Positions 20,784 to 31,898 of a DNA stretch of 33,315 nucleotides are shown in pieces; position 1 is the first letter of the stretch; each line of letters begins with the position of its first letter. Source of the DNA: a virus; IMG/VR virus record IMGVR_UViG_3300045135_003611, positions 1 to 33,315 of that record; one strand, 5' to 3'. Both the position numbers and the translations under genes were made by a program. The notes under the pieces were generated by a model. It worked only from the letters and a program-made list of their open reading frames with translations, did no database searches and was not told the DNA's origin.

Positions 20784-21119
20784 ATGCAAGGCATGAACGC
20801 AATCACTGGCCAGCACCTGGCCGGAGAGGCACATCTGCGCCAGTCGATCATAGATATTCTGACAACACCGCTCGGAACCCGGGTGATGCGCCGGGACTAT
20901 GGCTCACGATTGTTCGAGTTGGTGGATGCGCCCATCAATCGCTCGACACTGGTTGAAATCTACGCGGCCACAGCAGAGGCGCTCCTGAAGTGGGAACCGA
21001 GGCTGGAATTGAGCAGAGTACGTGTCACCCAGGCAGATCCGGGAAAGGTGGAGTTGTTGCTGGAAGGCACCTATTTACCCGATGGGCAACACATAGAGCT
21101 GGAAGGCATTATCGTATGA
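20784..21119 (+). CDS. W: Baseplate wedge protein W (P2 gpW / T4 gp25-like)
   Basis: The 111-residue protein shows the gp25-like lysozyme-related fold pattern: HLRQSIIDILTTPLGTRVMR followed by RDYGSRLFELVDAPIN. It is a conserved core subunit of contractile-tail baseplates and starts sheath assembly. A second in-frame ATG at 20793 is an alternative start. It follows V directly, as in P2. Confidence 0.92.
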   Translation: MQGMNAITGQHLAGEAHLRQSIIDILTTPLGTRVMRRDYGSRLFELVDAPINRSTLVEIYAATAEALLKWEPRLELSRVRVTQADPGKVELLLEGTYLPDGQHIELEGIIV

Positions 21120-21120
21120 C

Positions 21121-21165
21121 ATGTAGGACACATAAATTTCGCGGGAGCCATGGAGGGCGGGAGCG
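21121..21165. repeat. Structured intergenic element, copy A (upstream of gpJ)
   Basis: Hairpin I is ATGT-AGGAC-ACAT (21121-21133). It is followed by TCGC (21139-21142) pairing with GCGA (21163-21166), enclosing a GCC/GGC inner pair around ATGGAG. The layout equals copies C and E, but the sequence is divergent in the stems. Confidence 0.55.
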
Positions 21166-22062
21166 ATGAGTGGATTTACAGCGATTGATCTTGCCAAGCT
21201 GCCTTCCCCGGAGGTGGTGGAGCAGCTGGATTACGAACAAATCCTCGCTGCCATGCTGGCCGACCTGCGTGCCCGGGACGAGCAATTTACGGCGCTGGTG
21301 GAGAGTGACCCGGCCTACAAGATTCTGGAGGTTGCCGCTTACCGGGAAACATTGCTGCGGGCACGTATCAACGATGCCAGTCGGGCAGTAATGCTCGCCT
21401 ATGCGCGAGGCAGTGATCTAGAGAATCTGGCGGCATTCTTCGGTGTGGAACGCCAACTGGTAGATCCGGGAAACAGCGAGGCCATTCCACCTGTACCGCC
21501 AACCTATGAGGATGACAACAGACTGCGCAAACGTGTGCAGCTGAGTCTGGAAGGACACAGTACCGCAGGCCCCATCGGCAGCTATGTCTTCCATTCACTG
21601 GCCGCCAGCGCCCGGGTAAAGGATGTGGATGTGGCAAGCCCGACACCGGGTGAAGTCATCGTTACGGTACTGTCCGATGATGAACAGGGTGTGCCATCCA
21701 GTGAATTATTGTCTGCAGTAGAAACCACGCTGAATGCGGAAGATGTCAGGCCACTGACCGATCACCTGACAGTCCAGCCAGCGGAAATTCTGACCTACCG
21801 GATTGAAGCATCACTGGTGCTTTACACCGGACCGGATGCGGCAGTGGTACAGGCTGCGGCAAGACAATCGGTAACCGACTATGTGCGCCGTCATCACCTG
21901 CTGGGTAATGACATCACCTTATCAGGGCTCTATGCCGCCCTGCACAAGGAGGGTGTGCAACGCGTTAATTTGATATCGCCTGTAGCAGACATTGTGGTCG
22001 AGCCTCATCAGGCTGCCTGGTGTAGCGGCATTACGATCACAGATGGTGGCCGGGATGAGTGA
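21166..22062 (+). CDS. J: Baseplate protein J (P2 gpJ-like)
   Basis: The 298-residue product has the baseplate J pattern: IDLAKLPSPEVVEQLDYEQI at the N-terminus, then AYRETLLRARINDASRAVML and AYARGSDLENLAAFFGVERQ, with the central HSTAGPIGSYVFHSLAASAR. It forms the wedge that links the baseplate hub to fibres. Its initiation region carries structured element copy A. It overlaps gene I by 8 bp, as in other P2-like phages. Confidence 0.92.
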   Translation: MSGFTAIDLAKLPSPEVVEQLDYEQILAAMLADLRARDEQFTALVESDPAYKILEVAAYRETLLRARINDASRAVMLAYARGSDLENLAAFFGVERQLVDPGNSEAIPPVPPTYEDDNRLRKRVQLSLEGHSTAGPIGSYVFHSLAASARVKDVDVASPTPGEVIVTVLSDDEQGVPSSELLSAVETTLNAEDVRPLTDHLTVQPAEILTYRIEASLVLYTGPDAAVVQAAARQSVTDYVRRHHLLGNDITLSGLYAALHKEGVQRVNLISPVADIVVEPHQAAWCSGITITDGGRDE

Positions 22063-22783
22063 TGCGAGTTTGCTGCCACCCAATGCTGTCACGCAGGAAA
22101 GAACACTTGAATCGGTCTTGGAACCCGGAACCGATCTACCCATTCCCATTCGTGATCTATGGAAACCGGATACCTGTCCCGCCTCTCTGTTGCCCTGGTT
22201 GGCATGGGCGCTTTCGGTCGATGAATGGGACAGTGACTGGCCAGAGGCGATCAAACGTTCCGTCATTGCACAGAGTGTTGCCATACACCGCAAGAAAGGA
22301 ACGGTTCATGCGGTACGGCGGGCATTGGAGATACTCGGTGTCCGGGTCGAACTACGGGAATGGTTCGAGCAGAATGCTGCACCCCATACCTTTTCTCTGA
22401 CAGCCTGGGCGGGTGAAAACTTCCAGGCCGAAGGCGAGCCACTGTTGACGCCACAGTATTACGCTGCGCTCAAACGTGCGGTGGATGCCGTCAAGCCGGT
22501 TCGATCCCATTACAACTTCAAGGTGGGAGCCCGGTTCTTTCGGGATCTCGGCATGCTGACAACGCTCGGTTCGACCCTGAGCCTGCGCCGCAATGCCAAA
22601 GCCATTCAGAGTCCGATTGCAGCGGCCATCGGTATTACATCCGGGTCGGCAGCACTGCCTATGAATCTGATGCGCCGCTGGGTCCAGCCTGCAAGTCTGG
22701 GGAATTTACAACTGGCCGCACCAATGACCGTGGTGACGCAAAGAGCCGTCACTCACGTAAGAGTTTCGATGGAGATGCAATGA
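22055..22783 (+). CDS. I: Tail protein I (P2 gpI-like)
   Basis: From the ATG at 22055 the product is 242 residues. The segment LESVLEPGTDLPIPIRDLWK, then CPASLLPWLAWALSVDEWD and HRKKGTVHAVRRALEILG, is the signature of the phage tail protein I family, a baseplate component linking J to the tail fibre. An upstream in-frame ATG (21992) would lie inside J. It is coupled to the fibre gene by an ATGA overlap at 22780. Confidence 0.92.
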   Translation: MSDASLLPPNAVTQERTLESVLEPGTDLPIPIRDLWKPDTCPASLLPWLAWALSVDEWDSDWPEAIKRSVIAQSVAIHRKKGTVHAVRRALEILGVRVELREWFEQNAAPHTFSLTAWAGENFQAEGEPLLTPQYYAALKRAVDAVKPVRSHYNFKVGARFFRDLGMLTTLGSTLSLRRNAKAIQSPIAAAIGITSGSAALPMNLMRRWVQPASLGNLQLAAPMTVVTQRAVTHVRVSMEMQ

Positions 22784-23667
22784 GTAACACATTAATACCG
22801 GTGATTACCCAGGTTGGGTTACAGGCAGTATTCAATGCCAGCAACTCCGGCCTGCAGGCAGAGATCACGGAAATCGCTCTGGGTGATCAGGGCTGGCAAC
22901 CCGACAATGCCGCCACTGGTTTGAGAAATGAACGACGACGTATCCAGATCAGCAATGGTGAACGGATTGCGCCAACTCAAATTCATATCACCGCCGTTGA
23001 GGACGGCACCCAGCTGGAATACTGGGTACGGGAAGTCGGCTTTTATCTGGCGGATGGCTCCTTGTTGGCCATATGGAGTCACGAGACACAGGCGCTGGCA
23101 TACAAGGCGGCAGGTGTTGATCTATTGCTGGCCTTTGATATGGCGCTTGCGGCGCTACCCGCAGAGAGTGTCACGGTCGTTGGTACTGGCGGCGTCAGTT
23201 TGCCACCGGCAACGACCGTCAAACTGGGTGTGATGCGCTTTGCCACCACTACGGAGGCAAAAGCGGGAACCATCCATGACAAGGCCGTGACGCCAAAGGG
23301 TATGCGGACACATGGCGATGCGCGTTACTCGAAACTGTCGCATCAGCACGATGCGGCCTATGCGGCGCTGTCGCACTTGCATGACGACAGGTATATCCAG
23401 TTATCGGATGCACCCCGGGCGGTATATGTCGATGTGCGATCCACGGGTAATACCGCGAATGCATCCACTGCACTGAACTGGGCGCTGGCCATTCACCCCA
23501 ATAGTGGGTTTAGCAATAACGATCACATCATCGTCCTGTATCGCAACCGCTATGTGCGTGGCACTGGCAACGGCAGCGCCTGGTGGACTGATGACCGAAC
23601 CACAACCTTTATCAAAGCCGGTAGCTGGCGTGCCATTGCTACCAGCACCAATGGCTACTGGGGATAA
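22780..23667 (+). CDS. H: Tail fibre protein (P2 gpH-like N-terminus, short)
   Basis: Residues 1-150 match the tail-collar fibre domain (DUF3751 type): LIPVITQVGLQAVFNASNSG, LEYWVREVGFYLADGSLLAI and AYKAAGVDLLLAFDMAL. A linker (VKLGVMRFATTTEAKAGTI, then AVTPKGM) follows, then a collagen/shaft-like HQHDAAYAALSHLHDDRYIQ repeat and a compact C-terminal domain ending in STNGYWG. At 295 residues it is much shorter than P2 gpH (669). The C-terminal 90 residues are the likely receptor-binding part and would be expected to vary between relatives. Confidence 0.85.
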   Translation: MSNTLIPVITQVGLQAVFNASNSGLQAEITEIALGDQGWQPDNAATGLRNERRRIQISNGERIAPTQIHITAVEDGTQLEYWVREVGFYLADGSLLAIWSHETQALAYKAAGVDLLLAFDMALAALPAESVTVVGTGGVSLPPATTVKLGVMRFATTTEAKAGTIHDKAVTPKGMRTHGDARYSKLSHQHDAAYAALSHLHDDRYIQLSDAPRAVYVDVRSTGNTANASTALNWALAIHPNSGFSNNDHIIVLYRNRYVRGTGNGSAWWTDDRTTTFIKAGSWRAIATSTNGYWG

Positions 23668-23670
23668 CCG

Positions 23671-24204
23671 ATGAAAGTCATTCTCGTATTCAACAAATTC
23701 ACCGACCAGTACATCGGTATGACCTACGGTACCGAAGCCATGGCGCTTGCCGAGGATAAATGCGACCACACGCACTTCCAGTACAAGACGGTCGACATGG
23801 ACCCGGAGGCAGAGACCTGGGAAGGCGATTTCGCCACTGGAAAGATTATCCCACTGGCGCAACAGACCACCGTGATTTCCGAAACGGAACTGGATGCAGA
23901 CTGTCAGGACAAGATCTTCCGTCAGTACCGGTACTACCATCAGCTGAATGTGGTCTACGGTGTGCTGGATCAGCTGATTGCCGCCGTGGCACTGGATGAA
24001 TCCCTGTTGGCCGACTATCGGCAAATGCAGACCTATATCCGCAAGATTGTAGAAAACAACAGTCGTTACAAGGAAGCCTATGCCCAGCAGGAGGGTTACG
24101 AATATCTGGACAAGCCAAGCGAGCGGGACCGTCTGAATGCCCAGCTCGAAGGCGGGCTGCATGAGGTGATGGGTCGTTCTACCCACCCGGGTACACCACA
24201 ATGA
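23671..24204 (+). CDS. Unknown tail-fibre-linked protein (177 aa)
   Basis: I do not recognise the family. It starts three bases after the fibre stop and overlaps the next gene by ATGA, so it belongs to a fibre cassette. The N-terminal 60 residues are beta-rich with aromatic residues (MKVILVFNKFTDQYIGMTYG). The middle (ETWEGDFATGKIIPL) resembles the short strand-turn segments of tail-fibre assembly proteins. The C-terminal 100 residues are helical with many Tyr and Gln. A fibre-assembly chaperone is possible by position; a virion-associated protein is the alternative. Confidence 0.7.
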   Translation: MKVILVFNKFTDQYIGMTYGTEAMALAEDKCDHTHFQYKTVDMDPEAETWEGDFATGKIIPLAQQTTVISETELDADCQDKIFRQYRYYHQLNVVYGVLDQLIAAVALDESLLADYRQMQTYIRKIVENNSRYKEAYAQQEGYEYLDKPSERDRLNAQLEGGLHEVMGRSTHPGTPQ

Positions 24205-24686
24205 TTGAAATAACCCGGCATATCTCCAACTCAGAGGCTGCCCAATTACGCGCCCAGATACGGTCGCTGGACAAAGCCTACTGGCAGGACCGCTCCAAGC
24301 ACAATCTCAATCTGGGCGTGGATAACTCGGTTGGTCAGTATTACTCCTGCGGGCAGGTTTCCTGTCCGGCAGAACTGAGTGAACTGATCGAATCCATTGC
24401 ACCGGAGTGTCCCGGATACGAACTTGAAGAATGGATCATCAACTGGACGCCTGAAGGTGGATTCATGCCACCTCATATCGATAACGAAGGCTATCTGCGT
24501 ATCGGCATTCTATGTCTTCAATCTGATAGCGGTGCCTTCATCTGGTATCGCGACAATAACCTGAATCAGCCTGAGCGGATAAACGATATCGCAGGCCAGT
24601 TAATCCACATAGACGACATCACCCAGATCCATGCCGTGGCTCCTGCCTGCATGGATCGTTACGTGATCATATTTCTCTACAGGTAA
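24201..24686 (+). CDS. Putative 2OG-Fe(II) oxygenase-like protein in the tail-fibre cassette
   Basis: The 161 residues show a double-stranded beta-helix pattern with GGFMPPHIDNEGYLRIGILC near 86-105, SGAFIWYRD at 110-118 and AGQLIHIDDITQIHAV at 131-146. His92-x-Asp94, His144 and Arg153 give HxD...H...R, the iron and 2-oxoglutarate binding signature of prolyl-4-hydroxylase-like enzymes, with normal spacing (49 residues between D and H, then 9 to R). No signal peptide is present. In the fibre cassette it could hydroxylate a fibre protein or modify a host or DNA target. The fold call is from motifs only and no substrate is known. Confidence 0.65.
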   Translation: MIEITRHISNSEAAQLRAQIRSLDKAYWQDRSKHNLNLGVDNSVGQYYSCGQVSCPAELSELIESIAPECPGYELEEWIINWTPEGGFMPPHIDNEGYLRIGILCLQSDSGAFIWYRDNNLNQPERINDIAGQLIHIDDITQIHAVAPACMDRYVIIFLYR

Positions 24687-24692
24687 TTCACT

Positions 24693-25196
24693 ATGACGCA
24701 AATCAAACCCGCACTGCTGAGTGCGGCGCAGTCGGCTGCGCTTTTGAAATCTGCCAATGAGCACTTGAGCCAGTTTATGCCCAGCCATGGTGTATTCCGG
24801 CGTATGGGGATCAATGGCGTCGATGCGCTGTCGGAGTACGAATTTCTCAAGCGCTGGAAGTTTCCCGATGCCCTTAACCTGGTTTATGAGCAGCAGGTGC
24901 CTGCAGCACTGCAGCAAACCAGTAACGAAGCATGGCTGTTGCGCTTTCCAACGGGTGGTTTTCTGGACCAGTGCCGCGCCAGCAAGCCACTGTTCAATTG
25001 CCTGTCCATCCCGTTGAACGATGGTGGTCAGTTCACTATCTGGGAAAACGGAGAACCTGTAACCCATACCAACAAAGCGGGCGATGGTTATCTGTTTTCA
25101 TTGGCTGACTACCACCAGGTGCCGCCAGCCACACAGGATGACCTGTATCTCTGTTTTCTGTTTCTCAACCATATCGAGGTGATGAACAATGCCTGA
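24693..25196 (+). CDS. Protein related to its neighbour by fold pattern, lacking the HxD motif
   Basis: The 167-residue product starts seven bases after the oxygenase-like gene and overlaps the sheath gene. Its C-terminal half follows the same order of elements: FPTGGFLDQCRA near 85-96, GGQFTIWENG at 111-120, KAGDGYLFSLADYHQV at 128-143 and a final beta strand. The positions of the catalytic HxD are replaced (approximately Cys94 and Ala96). His141 is kept and the Arg is not evident. It may be an inactive relative or a partner of the first protein. The N-terminal 70 residues have no partner motif. Confidence 0.55.
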   Translation: MTQIKPALLSAAQSAALLKSANEHLSQFMPSHGVFRRMGINGVDALSEYEFLKRWKFPDALNLVYEQQVPAALQQTSNEAWLLRFPTGGFLDQCRASKPLFNCLSIPLNDGGQFTIWENGEPVTHTNKAGDGYLFSLADYHQVPPATQDDLYLCFLFLNHIEVMNNA

Positions 25197-26415
25197 ACAA
25201 TTTTTACATGGGGTGGAGGTCGTTGAAATTGACAGCGGCCCACGCCCGATTCGAACCGTCCGTTCATCCGTTATCGGACTGATCGGTACAGCACCCGCAG
25301 CGGATGAGGATCAATTTCCCTATCACATGCCGGTGCTGATTGCCGGTAGCCGCAAGGAGGCCGCCGGTCTTGGCAGTGAAGGTACGTTACCTGCGGCCAT
25401 CGATGACATCTTTGACCAGACCGGTGCCATGATCGTGGTGATCCGGGTGCCGGACTTTGGTGGTGAATTCGGGGGCGAAGAGTTCCCTGTCTTCGATGGA
25501 GAGCTGGGATTCGCTCCCTGGTTACCCAACATCTCGGAAATTATTGGTGGCGTGGATGAAGAAACCGGGCAGTACCTCGGAATTCAGGCCTTTCTGGCTG
25601 CCGAGAGTGAAGTCCATGTCACGCCTCGGATTCTGATTGCGCCCGAGTACAGCCACAATCCGGCAATCGCCAACGAGCTTTTGAGTGTGGCCGAACGGCT
25701 GAGAGCAGTGGTCATCGCCGATGGTCCCAATATGAGCGACACAGAGGCCATTGATTACCGTGAAATGTTCGGCAGTCCCCGCCTGTATCTGGTCGATCCA
25801 TGGGTGAGAACCTGGGATGTGAATATCGATGCCGAAGTGGTGCGCCCGGCAAGCGCCCGGGTCGCCGGGCTGATCGCCAAGTCGGATGCCGAGCGCGGTT
25901 TCTGGTGGTCGCCGAGTAACCGGGAGATCAGAGGCGTACTGGGTACGGCGCGTTCGGTGGATTTTGCACTGGGCGATGTCAACGCCAGAGCCAACTATCT
26001 CAATGAGCATGAAGTAACCACGATTATCCAGAAGACCGGCTTTCGCCTGTGGGGTAACCGTACCTGCTCAGCCGATCCCAAGTGGGCGTTTCTCAGCGTG
26101 CGGCGTACTGCCGATATGATCAACGAATCATTGCTGCGTGCGCACATGTGGGCCGTTGATCGCAATATCACCAAGACCTATCTGGAAGATGTACTGGAAG
26201 GCGTCAATGCCTACCTGCGTCATCTTCGAACAGTGGGGGCAATTATCAACGGTCGTGCCTGGGCTGATCCTGATCTGAATACACCCGATCAGATATCTCA
26301 GGGCAAGGTCTACATCGACTTTGATTTTACACCGCCATATCCGGCAGAACACATCACCTTCCGTAGTCATCTGGTTAACGACTATCTGGTTGAAGTGCTG
26401 CCTGAAGTCGCATAA
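25189..26415 (+). CDS. FI: Tail sheath protein FI (P2-like)
   Basis: The 408-residue protein matches the contractile sheath family in length (P2 FI is 396) and motif: FLHGVEVVEIDSGPRPIRTV at the N-terminus, VRSSVIGLIGTAPAAD, GFRLWGNRTCSADPKWAFLS and a C-terminal domain with YIDFDFTPPYPAEHITFRSH. Sheath subunits contract to drive the tube through the host envelope. It overlaps the preceding gene by 8 bp and is followed by the tube gene in P2 order. Confidence 0.95.
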   Translation: MPEQFLHGVEVVEIDSGPRPIRTVRSSVIGLIGTAPAADEDQFPYHMPVLIAGSRKEAAGLGSEGTLPAAIDDIFDQTGAMIVVIRVPDFGGEFGGEEFPVFDGELGFAPWLPNISEIIGGVDEETGQYLGIQAFLAAESEVHVTPRILIAPEYSHNPAIANELLSVAERLRAVVIADGPNMSDTEAIDYREMFGSPRLYLVDPWVRTWDVNIDAEVVRPASARVAGLIAKSDAERGFWWSPSNREIRGVLGTARSVDFALGDVNARANYLNEHEVTTIIQKTGFRLWGNRTCSADPKWAFLSVRRTADMINESLLRAHMWAVDRNITKTYLEDVLEGVNAYLRHLRTVGAIINGRAWADPDLNTPDQISQGKVYIDFDFTPPYPAEHITFRSHLVNDYLVEVLPEVA

Positions 26416-26427
26416 CGGGAGACACCA

Positions 26428-26931
26428 ATGCTGGATGACATTCTGAAAAATATGGCCCTGTTCGTCGACGGGCGGGGTTACGCAGGCAATGTGGAAGAAC
26501 TGACGCTGCCAAAACTCACCATGAAGACCGAAGAGTTCCGGGGTGGCGGCATGGATGCACCCATCGAGGTGGAGATGGGCATGGAGAAACTCGAATGCGA
26601 GTTTACGCTCACCCGCTTCGATAAAGAGGTGCTCAAACTATTCGGGCTGGCTCCGGGCCGGGTGATGCCGCTGACGGTTCGCGGTGCCGTGGTATCTGAC
26701 AACGGCACGCAAACACCGGTGGTGGTCAATCTTCAGGGCACCATCCGAGAGATGGACCCGGGAAATTGGAAGCCGGGTGAGAAAGCCACGCTCAAGTTTG
26801 CCATCGCCTTGCGCTACTACAAGTTGAGCCATGGCGGTGAGGTGATACACGAAATCGATATCCCGAATATGGTTCGGGTGGTCGGCGGTGTGGATCAACT
26901 GTCTGAAATTCGTAATGCGCTTGGCGTTTAA
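26428..26931 (+). CDS. FII: Tail tube protein FII (P2-like)
   Basis: The 167-residue product matches the P2 FII tube family (172 residues in P2): DGRGYAGNVEELTLPKLTMK near the start, followed by EEFRGGGMDAPIEVEMGMEK and KFAIALRYYKLSHGGEVIHE. It polymerises into the inner tube around the tape measure protein. It lies 12 bp after the sheath gene. There is no irregularity. Confidence 0.94.
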   Translation: MLDDILKNMALFVDGRGYAGNVEELTLPKLTMKTEEFRGGGMDAPIEVEMGMEKLECEFTLTRFDKEVLKLFGLAPGRVMPLTVRGAVVSDNGTQTPVVVNLQGTIREMDPGNWKPGEKATLKFAIALRYYKLSHGGEVIHEIDIPNMVRVVGGVDQLSEIRNALGV

Positions 26932-26948
26932 TCAACGAGGTCATAATC

Positions 26949-27230
26949 ATGGAAACCCAAACTTACTACGTCATCAAACCAACGACTCATAACAAAACCA
27001 AAGTCACCCACGGTGACCGGCTGGAACTGACCGGGGAACAGGCGCGGCCTCTGATCAACGGCGGATTCATTGGTACCGACAAGGCCAGTGCTATCCGTAT
27101 CGGTGAACTGGCAGCAGCACTCGACAAGGCCGAAGCCGAAATCAAGTCGCTACAAGGTCAGATTGCCAACGATACATCCGAAGCACCGGTGAAGGCAGAT
27201 ACGCCAAAGACAGAGGCCAGTAAATCATGA
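26949..27230 (+). CDS. Small tail-region protein with coiled-coil segment (93 aa)
   Basis: The 93-residue protein has an N-terminal beta module (GDRLELTGEQARPLINGGFI) similar in pattern to the start of the 113-aa protein at 18519. A helical segment follows (IGELAAALDKAEAEIKSLQG) that could form a coiled coil, and a disordered Thr/Glu/Lys tail ends it. It lies between the tube gene and E and overlaps E by ATGA. P2 has no equivalent here as far as I recall. Function unknown. Confidence 0.75.
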   Translation: METQTYYVIKPTTHNKTKVTHGDRLELTGEQARPLINGGFIGTDKASAIRIGELAAALDKAEAEIKSLQGQIANDTSEAPVKADTPKTEASKS

Positions 27231-27466
27231 GCACCATCGAAATCAAATATCCGATCAGTGTGGACGGGGTGAAGGTGAAGTCCCTCAAACTGCGCCGTCC
27301 CAAAGTACGGGACATGCTGAGTGTCGAGTCGGGCCAAATTTCCGATGCCGAGAAAGAGATCAACCTGTTCGCCAATCTCTGTGAAGTGACACCGGAAGCC
27401 TTGATGGAACTGGATATGTCGGACTACGCCAAACTTCAAAAGGCTTACCAGGATTTTTTGTCTTAA
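27227..27466 (+). CDS. E: Tail assembly chaperone E (P2 gpE-like), unshifted product
   Basis: The 79-residue product matches the gpE family: KYPISVDGVKVKSLKLRRPK, followed by VRDMLSVESG and LCEVTPEALMELDMSDYAKL. Together with the frameshift form it coats the tape measure protein during tube assembly. It ends at TAA 27464-27466, four bases after the slippery heptamer. In P2 the E/E' pair is required for tail assembly. Confidence 0.88.
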   Translation: MSTIEIKYPISVDGVKVKSLKLRRPKVRDMLSVESGQISDAEKEINLFANLCEVTPEALMELDMSDYAKLQKAYQDFLS

Positions 27467-27600
27467 ACCCACCCGAGGCGCGACGCGCCTGTATCGCCCT
27501 GGCTTCCCATACCGGGTGGCCGCTTTCTGAATTACTCGAACTGGATGGTCATGAGCTCATGGCCTGGCTTGAGGCGTGCCCGACATCCAGGGATGGATAA
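27227..27600 (+). CDS. E': Frameshifted tail assembly chaperone E+E' (P2-like)
   Basis: A -1 shift at 27454-27460 joins the 78 codons of E to a 46-codon extension. The extension is read from 27460 to TAA 27598-27600 and begins VLNPPEARRACIALASHTGW, with LLELDGHELMAWLEACP later. Those residues are protein-like and match the role and place of P2 E', giving a 124-residue fusion. A hairpin GGCGC-GAC-GCGCC (27477-27489) lies 16 bases downstream of the slip site. P2 uses the same heptamer. The extension has no ATG of its own near its start, which supports frameshifting. Confidence 0.85.
27454..27460 (+). promoter_or_regulatory. Programmed -1 frameshift site T TTT TTG
   Basis: The heptamer T TTT TTG is in the zero frame of gene E (codons TTT at 27455 and TTG at 27458). 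It is the same slippery sequence known for the P2 E/E' frameshift. The zero-frame stop follows two codons later. Confidence 0.88.
27477..27489 (+). other. Hairpin downstream of the E frameshift site
   Basis: GGCGC (27477-27481) and GCGCC (27485-27489) form a tight stem over GAC, extended by an A-T pair on each side. The 16-base spacing to the slippery site is longer than usual for a stimulatory hairpin, so its effect is uncertain. Confidence 0.45.
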
Positions 27601-27680
27601 GTGTCGCGGGAGGCACGACTGCAGGGATGCAGGAGGTAGAGCAACGCAAGGAGCAGTTGCCGAGGACGCCGGGAGCGACC
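27585..27680. repeat. Structured element, copy B (complex, between E' and tape measure)
   Basis: Two GGGA-loop hairpins are visible: ATCCA-GGGA-TGGAT (27585-27598, overlapping the E' stop) and CTGCA-GGGA-TGCAG (27619-27632). A GCAAC/GTTGC stem (27641-27660) follows. An outer GTCGC (27603-27607) / GCGAC (27675-27679) pair, the same as in copies C and E, encloses the last parts. The rest of the gap to the tape measure start at 27700 holds only its RBS. Confidence 0.6.
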
Positions 27681-27699
27681 GACAACTGGAGAAAGGTAA

Positions 27700-29997
27700 G
27701 TGAAAAGTTCTTTCAAACTGGCCATCCAGATCGGTGCAGCCGTCAGTGGCAGCTTCAAAACCGCAGTACGAGGTTCACAGGTCCAGCTGAATCAGCTGGG
27801 GGGAACGCTGAAAAAACTGCGTTCCCAGCAGCAGGCCATCGGTAAATTCGAACTGGCAGAGACCAATCTGGGCAAGGCCCGAGTTTCCTACAATGCTGCT
27901 GCCAAAGAGGTCATGCGTCTGCGTAAGGAGATGGCGGCGACCGATCAGCCCAGCAAGAAGCTGGTTCAGTCTTTCGAATCAGCCAAACAGAAAGCGGCAA
28001 GCCTGTCGGTCAAACTCGCTTCTCAGAAAGACAAGCTGCGGCAGGTACGGCGAGAGCTGGATGGTGCGGGGATCGATACCCGGAATCTGGCCAGTGAGAA
28101 CCAGCGGCTTGGTTCCACCCTGGACCGGTTAAACACCAAGTACAAAAAACTGACTCAGTCCATGCGTGCGCAGGAAGCCGTGAAGGCTCAGCGTGCCAAT
28201 CTACGGGGTCAATTATTTGATGCGGTAGCACTGGGTACCACCATTGCTGCACCCATCAAGGTGGCCGTGGATTTTGAACAGTCCGTTGCCAAGCTTGGTG
28301 CCATCACCCGGGCTGATGAGCAATCGTTACAATCTTTGGAAGCGACTGCCCGAAAGCTGGGTGAGACGACGCTCTTTACCGCCAGCCAGAGTGCGGAGGC
28401 CATGACCTTTCTGGGAATGGCAGGATTCAAGACCAATCAGATCCTGGAAGCCACGCCGGGCATGCTGAATCTTGCCCAGGCGGCCGGTAGTGATCTGGCT
28501 GAAACAGCGGACATTGCCTCCAACATCCTCAGTGGATTTTCGCTTGAGGCCGGACAAATGGGGCGTGTGGGTGATGTTTTGTCAGCCACATTCACCAGCT
28601 CGAATACCACCTTGCAGATGCTCGGGGACACGCTGAAATACGCGGCACCCGTCGCCAGCGCCACAGGGGCTTCACTGGAAGAAGTGGCAGCCATGGCCGG
28701 TCTGCTGGGTAATGTAGGTATTCAGGGCAGCATGGCAGGCACTGCCTTACGGGCTGCGTTCTTACGACTGTCTGCACCGCCCAAAATGGCAGCTGATGCC
28801 ATCGCGGAACTGGGACTCAGTGTGAAGGATGCGGATGGCAATCTGCGTCCTATCCCCGAGATTCTCAAAGAGATCGGTGCGGCAACCGAATCCATGGGCT
28901 CGGCGGAACAGGCCGAGGTGATCAAGAAATTGTTTGGCAGTGAAGCCGCTGCCGGAATGACCGAACTGCTCAAGCAGGCAGGCACCGGTGCGCTGGATGA
29001 CTATATCGCCCAGCTGCAGCAGGCCAAGGGCACCACCGATGAAATGGCCCGGAAAATGGGCAGCACCACCAGCGGTGCCTTGAAACGCCTGGGCAGCGCC
29101 ATGGAGAGTATGGCGATCAGTCTGGGCAACGTGTTATTGCCTACAGTTGCAGCCGGTGCCGAGATCTTCGCTTCCTTCGCCAGCTGGGTTTCAGCGGCAT
29201 CGCAAGAATATCCCTTGCTGACCAAGGTGGTTGTTGGTGCCACAGCCGGTCTGATCGTTTTGAAGGTCACCGCCATTGCCGGTGCCTATGCGTTTACCTT
29301 CTTGAAAGGTGGTGTGCTGACACTGGTAACGGCATACAGAACCTTGAGTGCCGGACTTGCATTGGCACAGCTGGGCATGACCCGCATGAATGTACTGGCC
29401 GGACTGAGTGCGGCAAGAATGGGCATTGTCACCGCCGCCCAGTGGGCGCTGAACATCGCTATGACGGCCAATCCCATCGGTTTGATTGTGGCAGGTATTG
29501 CGGCACTGGCTGGTGCGGCCTATCTGCTATTTCAGAACTGGGAGCCTATCGGAGAGTTCTTCGGCAATCTCTGGCAAGGCGTAAAGGATATGACATCTGC
29601 CGCAGTCGACTGGATTGTTGGCAAGCTGGAGTTTCTCGGCAAGCCAATGGAGATGCTGGGTAAGGCATGGGATGCGGTGACCGGCTGGTTCGACGATGAA
29701 GATGAAACCAAGCCCGGACCGAAAAAGAGCATCGGCCGGTTGACCCGGTCTACTGTGGGCACCGCATTGGTGGCATCCACGCCTGTCATAGCTGCATCGC
29801 CATCACCGGATTTGCCCGATGTGGTCCTGCAATCCCGGCCACCTGTTGAACAGGTCATCCAGATCGATGCGCCGATCACGATTCATGCACAGCCTGGTAT
29901 GGATGCACGCGCCATTGCGCTTGAAGTGCAAAAGGCACTGGAACAACAGAAAAATAGAGCGATGAGTGACCGGCGCTCAGCACTATACGATGTATAG
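27700..29997 (+). CDS. T: Tail tape measure protein (P2 gpT-like)
   Basis: The start is a GTG at 27700 with GGAGAAAGG at 27688-27696. Residues 1-160 are helical and Lys/Gln-rich (coiled coil). The TP901-type core follows: VDFEQSVAKLGAITRADEQS, TLFTASQSAEAMTFLGMAGF and the later GSMAGTALRAAFLRLSAPPK. Hydrophobic segments near residues 500-610 may form transmembrane-like helices, as in other tape measures that insert into the host inner membrane. At 765 residues it compares with 815 in P2, implying a tail slightly shorter than P2. Its stop codon lies inside hairpin I of structured copy C. Confidence 0.93.
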   Translation: MKSSFKLAIQIGAAVSGSFKTAVRGSQVQLNQLGGTLKKLRSQQQAIGKFELAETNLGKARVSYNAAAKEVMRLRKEMAATDQPSKKLVQSFESAKQKAASLSVKLASQKDKLRQVRRELDGAGIDTRNLASENQRLGSTLDRLNTKYKKLTQSMRAQEAVKAQRANLRGQLFDAVALGTTIAAPIKVAVDFEQSVAKLGAITRADEQSLQSLEATARKLGETTLFTASQSAEAMTFLGMAGFKTNQILEATPGMLNLAQAAGSDLAETADIASNILSGFSLEAGQMGRVGDVLSATFTSSNTTLQMLGDTLKYAAPVASATGASLEEVAAMAGLLGNVGIQGSMAGTALRAAFLRLSAPPKMAADAIAELGLSVKDADGNLRPIPEILKEIGAATESMGSAEQAEVIKKLFGSEAAAGMTELLKQAGTGALDDYIAQLQQAKGTTDEMARKMGSTTSGALKRLGSAMESMAISLGNVLLPTVAAGAEIFASFASWVSAASQEYPLLTKVVVGATAGLIVLKVTAIAGAYAFTFLKGGVLTLVTAYRTLSAGLALAQLGMTRMNVLAGLSAARMGIVTAAQWALNIAMTANPIGLIVAGIAALAGAAYLLFQNWEPIGEFFGNLWQGVKDMTSAAVDWIVGKLEFLGKPMEMLGKAWDAVTGWFDDEDETKPGPKKSIGRLTRSTVGTALVASTPVIAASPSPDLPDVVLQSRPPVEQVIQIDAPITIHAQPGMDARAIALEVQKALEQQKNRAMSDRRSALYDV

Positions 29998-30040
29998 GAA
30001 ATACAAGTGTCGCGTGAGCCAGGGATGGCGGTAGCGACCG
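29991..30040. repeat. Structured intergenic element, copy C (upstream of gpU)
   Basis: Hairpin I is TGTAT-AGGAA-ATACA (29991-30005). Hairpin II has outer GTCGC (30009-30013) / GCGAC (30034-30038) and inner GCCA-GGGA-TGGC (30018-30029). The gpU start lies 14 bases beyond. Copy E has the same 30-base outer span. Confidence 0.7.
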
Positions 30041-30053
30041 ATGAGGTAAATAT

Positions 30054-30494
30054 ATGTCTGAAACCATGATGGGGCTGGGCGGTTACCGGTTTTCACTAAC
30101 CAGTGCCGCCTATCAGGAGTTGCGCAGAAGCAATGCCTATCGCTGGCAGGCTCAGGAGCGATTGCAACGTCTACCGGCACAACAGTTTGTCGGCCCGGGT
30201 AGTGAGACGCTTGATCTCAAGGGCACAATCTATCCCCACTATCAGGGAGGAATGAAGCAGATCGATCTGATGCGTTCACAGGCAGGCCGAGGTGAGCCCT
30301 TGTTGCTGGTCGATGGTCTGGGCCTTATCTGGGGCCGGTGGGTTATTTTGCAGGTCGATGAAACTCAAACCGTCATGCTGACCAATGGCCAGCCAAGAAA
30401 ACTGGAGTTTCAACTACGGCTGGTGCGATATGGGGACGACGCCAGGGATGGCGGAGGTAGAACAATGTCTGGAACAAATGTCGAGGATCAGTAA
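30054..30494 (+). CDS. U: Tail protein U (P2 gpU-like)
   Basis: The 146-residue product shows the P2 gpU pattern: MMGLGGYRFSLTSAAYQELR at the N-terminus, followed by ERLQRLPAQQFVGPGSETLD and GLGLIWGRWVILQVDETQT. It works in tail completion next to X and D. Its last codons contain a GGGA-loop hairpin (copy D). It overlaps gene X by one base (TAATG junction). Confidence 0.92.
   Translation: MSETMMGLGGYRFSLTSAAYQELRRSNAYRWQAQERLQRLPAQQFVGPGSETLDLKGTIYPHYQGGMKQIDLMRSQAGRGEPLLLVDGLGLIWGRWVILQVDETQTVMLTNGQPRKLEFQLRLVRYGDDARDGGGRTMSGTNVEDQ
30440..30453. repeat. GGGA-loop hairpin, copy D (3' end of gpU)
   Basis: CGCCA-GGGA-TGGCG is a perfect 5-bp stem with the loop shared by the other copies, placed about 40 bases ahead of the gpX start. 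It is within the U coding frame, so coding constraint could in part explain it. Confidence 0.5.
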
Positions 30495-30703
30495 TGGCTC
30501 AATATCGCACGCGTGAAGGCGACATGCTCGATGCCATATGCAAAGCCTGGTATGGCGAATCATCCCGATACACCGAGGCGGTACTCGAGAGTAATCCCGG
30601 ACTTGCTGATCTGGGTGCGGTACTGCCAGCCGGTGTCATCATTGAATTACCGGAATTTCCAGACCTGTCTGTCAAGCAGGGTTCAATCAGATTGTGGGAC
30701 TGA
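30494..30703 (+). CDS. X: Tail protein X (P2 gpX-like)
   Basis: The 69-residue protein has the tail X pattern, a LysM-like fold: YRTREGDMLDAICKAWYGES, then LESNPGLADLGAVLPAGVII and ELPEFPD. It is a small tail-tip or spike-associated protein. It is tightly coupled between U and D, as in P2. Confidence 0.92.
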   Translation: MAQYRTREGDMLDAICKAWYGESSRYTEAVLESNPGLADLGAVLPAGVIIELPEFPDLSVKQGSIRLWD

Positions 30704-30706
30704 GGT

Positions 30707-31744
30707 ATGACACCGGATTTTCGGATACTGGCCGATAGTCAGGATATTACTGATCGCATTAAGGATCGGTTGTTATCCCTGCGTGTTACCGACGAAGCCG
30801 GTATCAAGTCCGATACAGTTGAAATCAAACTCGATGATCGTGATGCCCTGATTGCCTGGCCAGAGCATGGTGCAGAACTGGAAGTATCTCTGGGATATGC
30901 CGCACAAGGAAGTGCTAATGCCGCGTCAGCCATGGATGGCGTGAGCGGCCCAAAGGCAGGATTAACCAGGATGGGGCTGTATGTTGTCGATGAAGTTGAA
31001 CATGGCGGTCCACCCAATGCGCTGACGATACGGGCAAAAGCCTCCGACATGCGCCAGAGTCTCAAGGCACCGAGAACAAGGGTCTGGGACAATGTCACAC
31101 TGGCCGATATGGTGACCACCATTGCCGGTGAACATGGCCTGGTACCCAAGATCAGTGAGACGCTGGCAGTGGTCAGCTACACCCATCTGGACCAGACAGA
31201 GGAATCCGATTTGCACCTGTTGACGCGGCTTGCCCGTGAAAACAGTGCCGTAACCAAGCCTGTCGCAGGAAATCTGATCTTTGCAACCCGGGGAGAAGCC
31301 AAAAGCATCTCCGGCCAAGAATTACCCGCGATTCAGGTTGTGGCACACCAGATCCAACGCCACCAAATGACACAGGCGGACCGGGGCAAGTACGCTGCTG
31401 TACTGACCCATTGGCATGACCCAATGAAAGCTGAGCGTGTGCCGGTAAAGGTTGGTCAGGGCAAACCGGTTTATACCTTGCGCCATACCTATTCGGATAG
31501 TGACCAAGCCACTCGGGCTGCACAGGCAAAGCTGGAAGCGCTACAGCGAGGCACCGGCACCCTGAGCCTGACATTGATTGGAGACAGTGACCTGATGGCG
31601 GAAGCCAAACTTGAACTGAAAGGCATACGTGATCGTGTCGATGGTGAATGGCTCATTCAACGCGTCGAGCATCAATTCGACAACCAGGGTTTCGTGACCC
31701 GTATTGAGGCCGAAAAATCTGCCAGGAGCAGATTTTCGCGCTAG
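30707..31744 (+). CDS. D: Late control/tail protein D (P2 gpD-like)
   Basis: The 345-residue product matches P2 gpD: PDFRILADSQDITDRIKDRL, SDTVEIKLDDRDALIAWPEH, and WDNVTLADMVTTIAGEHGLV with a later LDQTEESDLHLLTRLARE. It is homologous to T4 gp27-like hub proteins and forms the trimeric baseplate hub above the spike. It closes the tail operon. A 6-bp hairpin and a terminator lie after it. Confidence 0.93.
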   Translation: MTPDFRILADSQDITDRIKDRLLSLRVTDEAGIKSDTVEIKLDDRDALIAWPEHGAELEVSLGYAAQGSANAASAMDGVSGPKAGLTRMGLYVVDEVEHGGPPNALTIRAKASDMRQSLKAPRTRVWDNVTLADMVTTIAGEHGLVPKISETLAVVSYTHLDQTEESDLHLLTRLARENSAVTKPVAGNLIFATRGEAKSISGQELPAIQVVAHQIQRHQMTQADRGKYAAVLTHWHDPMKAERVPVKVGQGKPVYTLRHTYSDSDQATRAAQAKLEALQRGTGTLSLTLIGDSDLMAEAKLELKGIRDRVDGEWLIQRVEHQFDNQGFVTRIEAEKSARSRFSR

Positions 31745-31758
31745 CCCCAAAGGGGTGA

Positions 31759-31774
31759 AACGCATGGATGCGTT
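31759..31774. repeat. Hairpin with TGGA loop, copy F (after gpD)
   Basis: AACGCA-TGGA-TGCGTT is a perfect 6-bp stem. Its core CATGGATG differs by one base from the CAGGGATG core of copies B to E. It lies 15 bases after the gpD stop. The gap 31745-31914 otherwise holds a terminator and copy E. Confidence 0.5.
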
Positions 31775-31824
31775 GAACAAACGCCGAAACCATAATCCAA
31801 ACCCAATAAGAACAGATTAACCAG

Positions 31825-31848
31825 ACCCGCCCGATTGGCGGGTTTTTT
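31825..31848 (+). terminator. Rho-independent terminator after the tail operon
   Basis: ACCCGCC (31825-31831) pairs with GGCGGGT (31837-31843) around CGATT and runs into six T (31843-31848). It separates the tail operon from the lysis genes, which may therefore need read-through or their own promoter. Confidence 0.85.
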
Positions 31849-31850
31849 AT

Positions 31851-31898
31851 GTACAGGAAGTACGGTATGTCGCGATGGCAGGGATGCCAAAGAGCGAC
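31851..31898. repeat. Structured intergenic element, copy E (upstream of lysis genes)
   Basis: Hairpin I is GTAC-AGGAA-GTAC (31851-31863). Hairpin II has outer GTCGC (31869-31873) / GCGAC (31894-31898) and inner GGCA-GGGA-TGCC (31877-31888). Compared with copy C the inner stem has exchanged bases on both sides, so pairing is preserved. Confidence 0.7.

Follow-up and report, generated by a model that had tools for sequence, protein, structure and literature searches.

What are the small hairpins with GGGA and AGGA loops that recur among the tail and lysis genes of IMG/VR virus record IMGVR_UViG_3300045135_003611, and what could they be doing there? The window, that is, the whole 33,315-nt stretch analysed here, is a virus record with no accompanying host genome, and the genes around the hairpins are P2-like (gp25/W, J, I, the tail chaperone E/E', the tape measure T, U, X, D and a DUF6127 gene). 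An initial annotation had listed five inner GGGA hairpins, together with AGGA-loop hairpins and outer TCGC/GCGA pairs, as a selected structure at the junctions between these genes, possibly bound by a protein. All of these parts are confirmed in place, and the outer stem spans exactly 30 nt in copy C (30009-30038) and in copy E (31869-31898). The copies it listed are real but the list was incomplete, and a further copy within gpD and elements of two other types (II and III) have been added to it (Table 1). These hairpins probably belong to a mobile repeat, some 50 nt long and coding for RNA, which carries a predicted two-site binding RNA for the regulator CsrA/RsmA.

The full extent of the element was recognised by comparison. 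Bacterial and viral collections were scanned for sequences matching the outer stem together with the GGGA hairpin; many of the matches were due to chance, and about 30, from unrelated Gammaproteobacteria and viral contigs, share an element longer than first described. Its extra part is a first hairpin with the loop AGGA[TCA] or ANGGA[TCA], separated from GTCGC by the linker AGT or AAT. This type I element, of about 50 nt, consists of hairpin 1, a short linker and an outer stem that encloses hairpin 2. The loop of hairpin 1 is mostly CAGGA(T/C/A)G or CANGGANG and that of hairpin 2 is CANGGATG, with CAGGGATG, CAGGATG or CATGGATG as variants, and the outer stem occurs as GTCGC/GCGAC, GCCGC/GCGGC, GCCGT/ACGGC, GCAGT/ACTGC and others. 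In copy C, for example, hairpin 1 (29991-30005, loop AGGAA) is followed by the outer stem (30009-30013/30034-30038) and, within it, hairpin 2 (30018-30029, loop GGGA).

A covariance model (CM) was built from 28 aligned sequences, with copies C and E in the training set, and it recovers copies A and B and the gpD copy, all three outside that set. The pair counts of the 28 training sequences are not an independent test, because the sequences were selected for having the first hairpin. Among 113 distinct matches, in an alignment fitted to the structure from which the covariation of the outer stem was also read, both-sided changes are present in 10 of the 14 pairs, 93% of the paired cells are paired (77.9% when shuffled), and the covariation score reaches 0.359, compared with 0.109 for shuffled data and at most 0.072 for slid partners. 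When the anchors make no use of the stem, 80-81% of 130 distinct candidates form pairs 2 and 3 of hairpin 1, and shuffling lowers this to 42-45%. The selected hairpin structure with compensatory changes that had been proposed is thus borne out, far above the shuffled and slid controls; in the newly added gpD copy, GCCGC/GCGGC replaces GTCGC/GCGAC in the outer stem, a compensatory change. Within the window, CAGGGATG occurs six times, always on the + strand, versus 2.06 expected (six were reached in 2 of 100 shuffles). Predicted folds support copies B, C and E (z -2.6 to -3.3, with -2.6 for C), give weaker support for copy A (z -1.7) and do not rise above chance for copy D (z -0.9).

The initial annotation could not name the hairpin family, and the loops point to a partner. 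Both of them fit the CsrA/RsmA consensus, i.e. A(N)GGA in a hairpin loop with CA/TG closing pairs, for which the CsrB repeat CAGGA(U/A/C)G and the site RUACARGGAUGU, obtained by systematic evolution of ligands by exponential enrichment (SELEX), are references (PMC7652899). The distance between the two GGA motifs is 24-30 nt over 125 copies, and 25-26 nt in 104 of them, which lies within the bridging range of one CsrA dimer, known to connect two sites 10-63 nt apart and best above 18 (PMC7652899). Effective binding by RsmE has been reported only for ATGGA and AGGGA hairpins (PMC9928087), and these are the two commonest six-base loops in the element set. Known CsrA/RsmA sites, in mRNAs or in the sponge RNAs CsrB/C and RsmX/Y/Z, have in common with the element this loop, its closing pairs and the presence of two or more sites at a dimer-bridgeable distance; they differ from it in that they are not mobile repeats and have no fixed two-hairpin unit of about 50 nt with an outer stem. 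The sponge RNAs are, in addition, single long genes, and a scan of the window with Rfam gave chance matches only, with no match to a CsrB, CsrC, RsmX, RsmY or RsmZ model up to E 5. No published description of repeats with these sequences, or of CsrA with mobile repeats, was found in the open-licence literature, the only literature covered, which makes this weak evidence of novelty. As a prediction from sequence, we strongly infer that the element RNA would be bound by CsrA/RsmA, and the protein-binding role suggested at the outset is judged likely.

Several points bear on the CsrA/RsmA reading: two counts around csrA speak for it, with qualifications, and others weigh against it. The association with csrA, which 42 of 43 element-bearing Proteobacteria encode versus 178 of 355 others (Fisher p 8e-11), was counted without phylogenetic correction, and both csrA and the element follow phylogeny. 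An element lies downstream of csrA in 4 of 20 csrA loci, versus 0.77 expected, one weak match being included in the count; at two of these loci it occupies the tRNA-Ser/tRNA-Arg spacer, next to a tRNA 3' end that is repeated there. No csrA match was obtained in the metagenome-assembled genomes G014 and G004, which have 42-45 copies and are both possibly incomplete or mis-binned. Regarding orientation, for which the gene calls come from a home-made codon-scored caller, 23 copies are on the same strand as both neighbouring genes and 10 opposite to both, copies within genes are sense in 17 cases and antisense in 10, and sense copies are modestly in excess (40 vs 20, p 0.013; 36 vs 20, p 0.044, with the window excluded). 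The many bacterial copies that are antisense to their neighbours cannot act in the mRNAs of those genes, and antisense and intragenic copies show that insertion itself is not restricted to regulatory positions. Finally, template-switch correction of DNA palindromes could also produce covariation of the stems without selection, although it would not hold the loops constant.

That the element is mobile is well supported by comparison with empty sites. Phage relatives were located via gpD (amino-acid identity of 85% for L239, 81% for L241, 76% for L240 and 75% for L242), and every copy in the window, all of them on the sense strand, is an insertion missing from at least one relative at the same site, with clean empty-site differences of 47-65 nt. 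Copy A is an inserted piece of about 50 nt whose GGAG/GGGAGCG continues into the start codon of J at 21166; its site is empty in the relatives L376, which reads GCATTATATTATGAGTGG there, and L377, and W and J overlap at ATGA in relatives. The site of copy B is empty in L239 and L240, and is filled in L242 by a copy that agrees in the first hairpin and differs in the second half, and that of copy C is empty in L241. Copy D, a 48-nt insertion, is missing from L239, L240 and L241 and present in L242 with the loop ATGGAT. The gpD copy is an in-frame insertion of 51 nt, which adds 17 residues and is absent from all four relatives located via gpD, and the type III piece, a 65-nt insertion relative to L239, alters the C terminus of gpD. 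Copy E, of 50 nt, starts directly after the T run of an intrinsic terminator (about 31826-31848), and its site is empty in L239, L241 and L242 (GGCGGGTTTTTT/CGTTTTAGAGG). Within the DNA compared, type I copies were not found in L239 and L241.

Table 1. Inserted elements of the window, with strand and supporting evidence or sequence, and loci of the longer-stemmed version in other genomes.
Feature	Type	Location	Position	Strand	Support or sequence
Copy A	I	between gpW (gp25-like) and gpJ	21112..21168 (core 21120-21166)	+	CM E 3.4e-10
Copy B	I	between gpE/E' and tape measure T	27582..27679	+	CM E 2e-6
Nested element	II	in second hairpin of copy B	27616..27667	+	CGAC-TGCAGGGATGCA-GGAGGTAGAGCAAC-GCAAGGAGC-AGTTGCCGAGGAC
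Copy C	I	between T and U	29988..30038	+	CM E 2e-17 (training-set member)
Copy D	degenerate II	end of gpU, before gpX	30435..30482	+	comparison with relatives
gpD copy	I	within gpD coding sequence	30898..30948 (CM match 30893-30950)	+	CM E 5.8e-14
Type III piece	III	gpD 3' end	31715..31779	+	AAATCTGC-CAGGA-GCAGATTT, spacer, AACGCA-TGGA-TGCGTT
Copy E	I	before DUF6127/lysis genes	31849..31898	+	CM E 3.6e-15 (training-set member)
Longer-stemmed version		genomes G090, G094, G222, G388, G340, G178	L319-L321, L332-L334		

Beyond the phages, the covariance model finds full-length copies across Proteobacteria and in other viral contigs. Of 398 sampled Proteobacteria, 43 yielded a match at E <= 1e-4, with 14 candidates scored per genome, and in the genomes reached from the pattern matches the number of copies ranges from 1 to at least 131, these counts being lower bounds, with 150 candidates scored per genome. 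Dispersed repeats are common in Shewanella, where a search seeded with locus L050 gave other repeats and not an ortholog, and at one bacterial locus there are orthologs that lack the element, the gap there not being cleanly alignable. Sequence comparison demonstrates the structure of the element, its covariation, its dispersal and its insertion at empty sites. Copies are also nested within the second hairpin of other copies, both in the window (copy B) and in genome G020, which suggests that the element's own hairpin may be a preferred insertion target. Four loci of G020 (L200, L202, L203 and L207) present repeated nesting of this kind, in which a newer copy has entered an older one at its second hairpin. 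A miniature inverted-repeat transposable element was considered and rejected, as there is neither a terminal inverted repeat nor a constant target-site duplication at the compared empty sites; CGATG stands at both ends of copy C and is not repeated elsewhere.

Small size, high copy number, both orientations, nesting and insertions after terminators and in genes are also what would be expected from a mobile palindrome of single-stranded DNA, similar to repetitive extragenic palindromic (REP) sequences or to IS200/IS605 elements, in which the hairpins and loops would be conserved for being read by a single-strand transposase and the likeness of the loop to a CsrA site would be incidental. Of 19 element-rich genomes, 15 contain Y1 transposases. 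We regard this explanation as unlikely: the element is near none of 30 Y1 transposase (Y1_Tnp) loci, whereas genes for REP-associated tyrosine transposases (RAYTs) are typically flanked by their own REPs or other inverted repeats (PMC3733652), and there is no Y1 match in the other four genomes, G026 (56 copies), G024, G012 and G006. Neither a GTAG nor a CGTC tag is fixed at an end, the conserved part is the GGA loop rather than the foot of the stem, and loop choice and spacing closely fit CsrA. REPs (GTAG/CGTC) and REPINs with RAYTs do share with the element short high-copy palindromes, sometimes in genes, with compensatory stem changes and dimers (PMC3733652). A REP, however, is a single palindrome of 20-40 nt, one end of which bears a GTAG or CGTC tag that stays unpaired, and the element has two unlike hairpins, conserved GGA loops, a length of about 50 nt and an outer stem of the GTCGC/GCGAC type (consensus of 117 matches), without a conserved tag or RAYT adjacency. 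The classical REP/RAYT system was rejected for lack of a RAYT neighbourhood.

It is quite unlikely that the element is a dispersed palindromic repeat serving another RNA process, such as mRNA 3'-end protection, processing or termination, and bound by a protein other than CsrA. The position of some copies after terminators (copy E and loci L008, L044 and L062), and of others in tRNA spacers beside a repeated tRNA 3' end, would agree with such a role, but it leaves unexplained the invariant A(N)GGA(N) loop with a C-G closing pair in both hairpins, as well as the near-constant spacing of the GGA motifs. The tRNA-linked repeats (TLRs) of E. coli (rrA/rrB/rrF and rtT) are likewise repeats with GGA hairpins; they repeat the 3' end of a tRNA or rRNA, and one of them, RrB, binds CsrA in vitro (PMC8144298). 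The copies near csrA share such a TLR-like repeated tRNA 3' end, whereas TLRs are restricted to tRNA/rRNA operons and the window copies are free insertions without a tRNA 3' end. As for insertion in frame, the small dispersed repeats of cyanobacteria also form very small in-frame insertions in protein genes. The same is true of the Rickettsia palindromic elements (PMC3733652). Both belong to other host groups and are set apart here by description, not by sequence. To our knowledge, no CsrA-type loops have been reported in either.

Least of all can the hairpins be ancestral cis-regulatory parts of the phage tail operon that were lost in relatives, the view of the initial annotation, which is very improbable and is rejected because of the empty sites: they immediately precede five genes, each in the sense orientation, and copies B and D are shared with L242, but the same family lies at unrelated places across bacterial genomes, elements are nested in one another, and precise parallel losses would be required in up to four relatives, including that of the in-frame gpD piece. 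Close relatives lack the elements at the same junctions, an outcome that the initial annotation itself had named as a refutation, and this goes against a homologous junction element. The idea of junction-specific tail and lysis elements is not supported either: copies also lie within genes and, in bacterial genomes, in either orientation.

The phage contains at least seven inserted pieces of about 50 nt. Type II elements, represented by copy D and the middle of copy B, are composed of a hairpin, a GGAGGTAGAGCAA linker and a GGA hairpin, and occur as well in seven further viral contigs and one bacterial genome (L339-L345; G020 loci L200 and L305). Type III is a third kind of double GGA hairpin, and similar pieces follow tRNAs downstream of csrA at loci L309 and L303. 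Downstream of csrA at L301, L303, L309 and L313, the tRNA-Ser/tRNA-Arg spacers contain partial tRNA 3'-end repeats adjoining GGA-loop hairpins. A longer-stemmed version with the same plan, GCGGCATGGATGCCGC-GAGA-GCCGCGATGGGCCAGGGATGGCCCTTCGCGGC, occurs in large element-bearing genomes. Copies placed right after a T run (L044, L008, L062, L142, L324, L327 and copy E) are without the usual YGAY start and have another linker (GGTAT or TTAT), as if they were a separate terminator-targeting subtype. Two further observations concern the surroundings of the window copies. Where the window has copy C, the T-U junction of L240 and L242 is occupied by an unrelated insert of several hundred bases. Within 27450-27600, a T6G slippery run precedes the stop of the tail-chaperone open reading frame (27227-27466) and is followed by an open E'-like frame, resembling the P2-type E/E+E' -1 frameshift, with copy B at the end of the E'-like frame.

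Under the CsrA/RsmA reading, the element would insert, in Proteobacteria and in their phages, between genes and at times in frame within a gene. Once transcribed, it would give a pair of GGA-loop hairpins spaced by about 25 nt, a platform for the CsrA/RsmA of the host on which a single dimer could hold both loops of one transcript. Through the phage copies, host CsrA would come to control transcripts from the tail and lysis region, where it might block or stabilise translation of the next gene: at copy A, which adjoins the start of J, it might hinder or tune initiation, and elsewhere the stability of the message might be altered or CsrA titrated. Antisense copies would be silent passengers, or active from antisense RNA. 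It is possible, and we propose it tentatively, that the element acts as a transposable regulatory cassette, with the two-site CsrA/RsmA-binding RNA as cargo, whose spread would rewire the CsrA network gene by gene, the phages' copies tying the late operon to the CsrA status of the host or titrating CsrA. It is still not settled how targets come under, or escape from, global RNA-binding regulators such as CsrA, and point mutation in leaders is the explanation usually offered. If the reading is true, a mobile element that brings along two CsrA sites ready for use would provide a direct way of rewiring the network and would account for an apparently unnamed repeat of many Proteobacteria, and it would offer phages a means to sense or titrate a regulator of their host.

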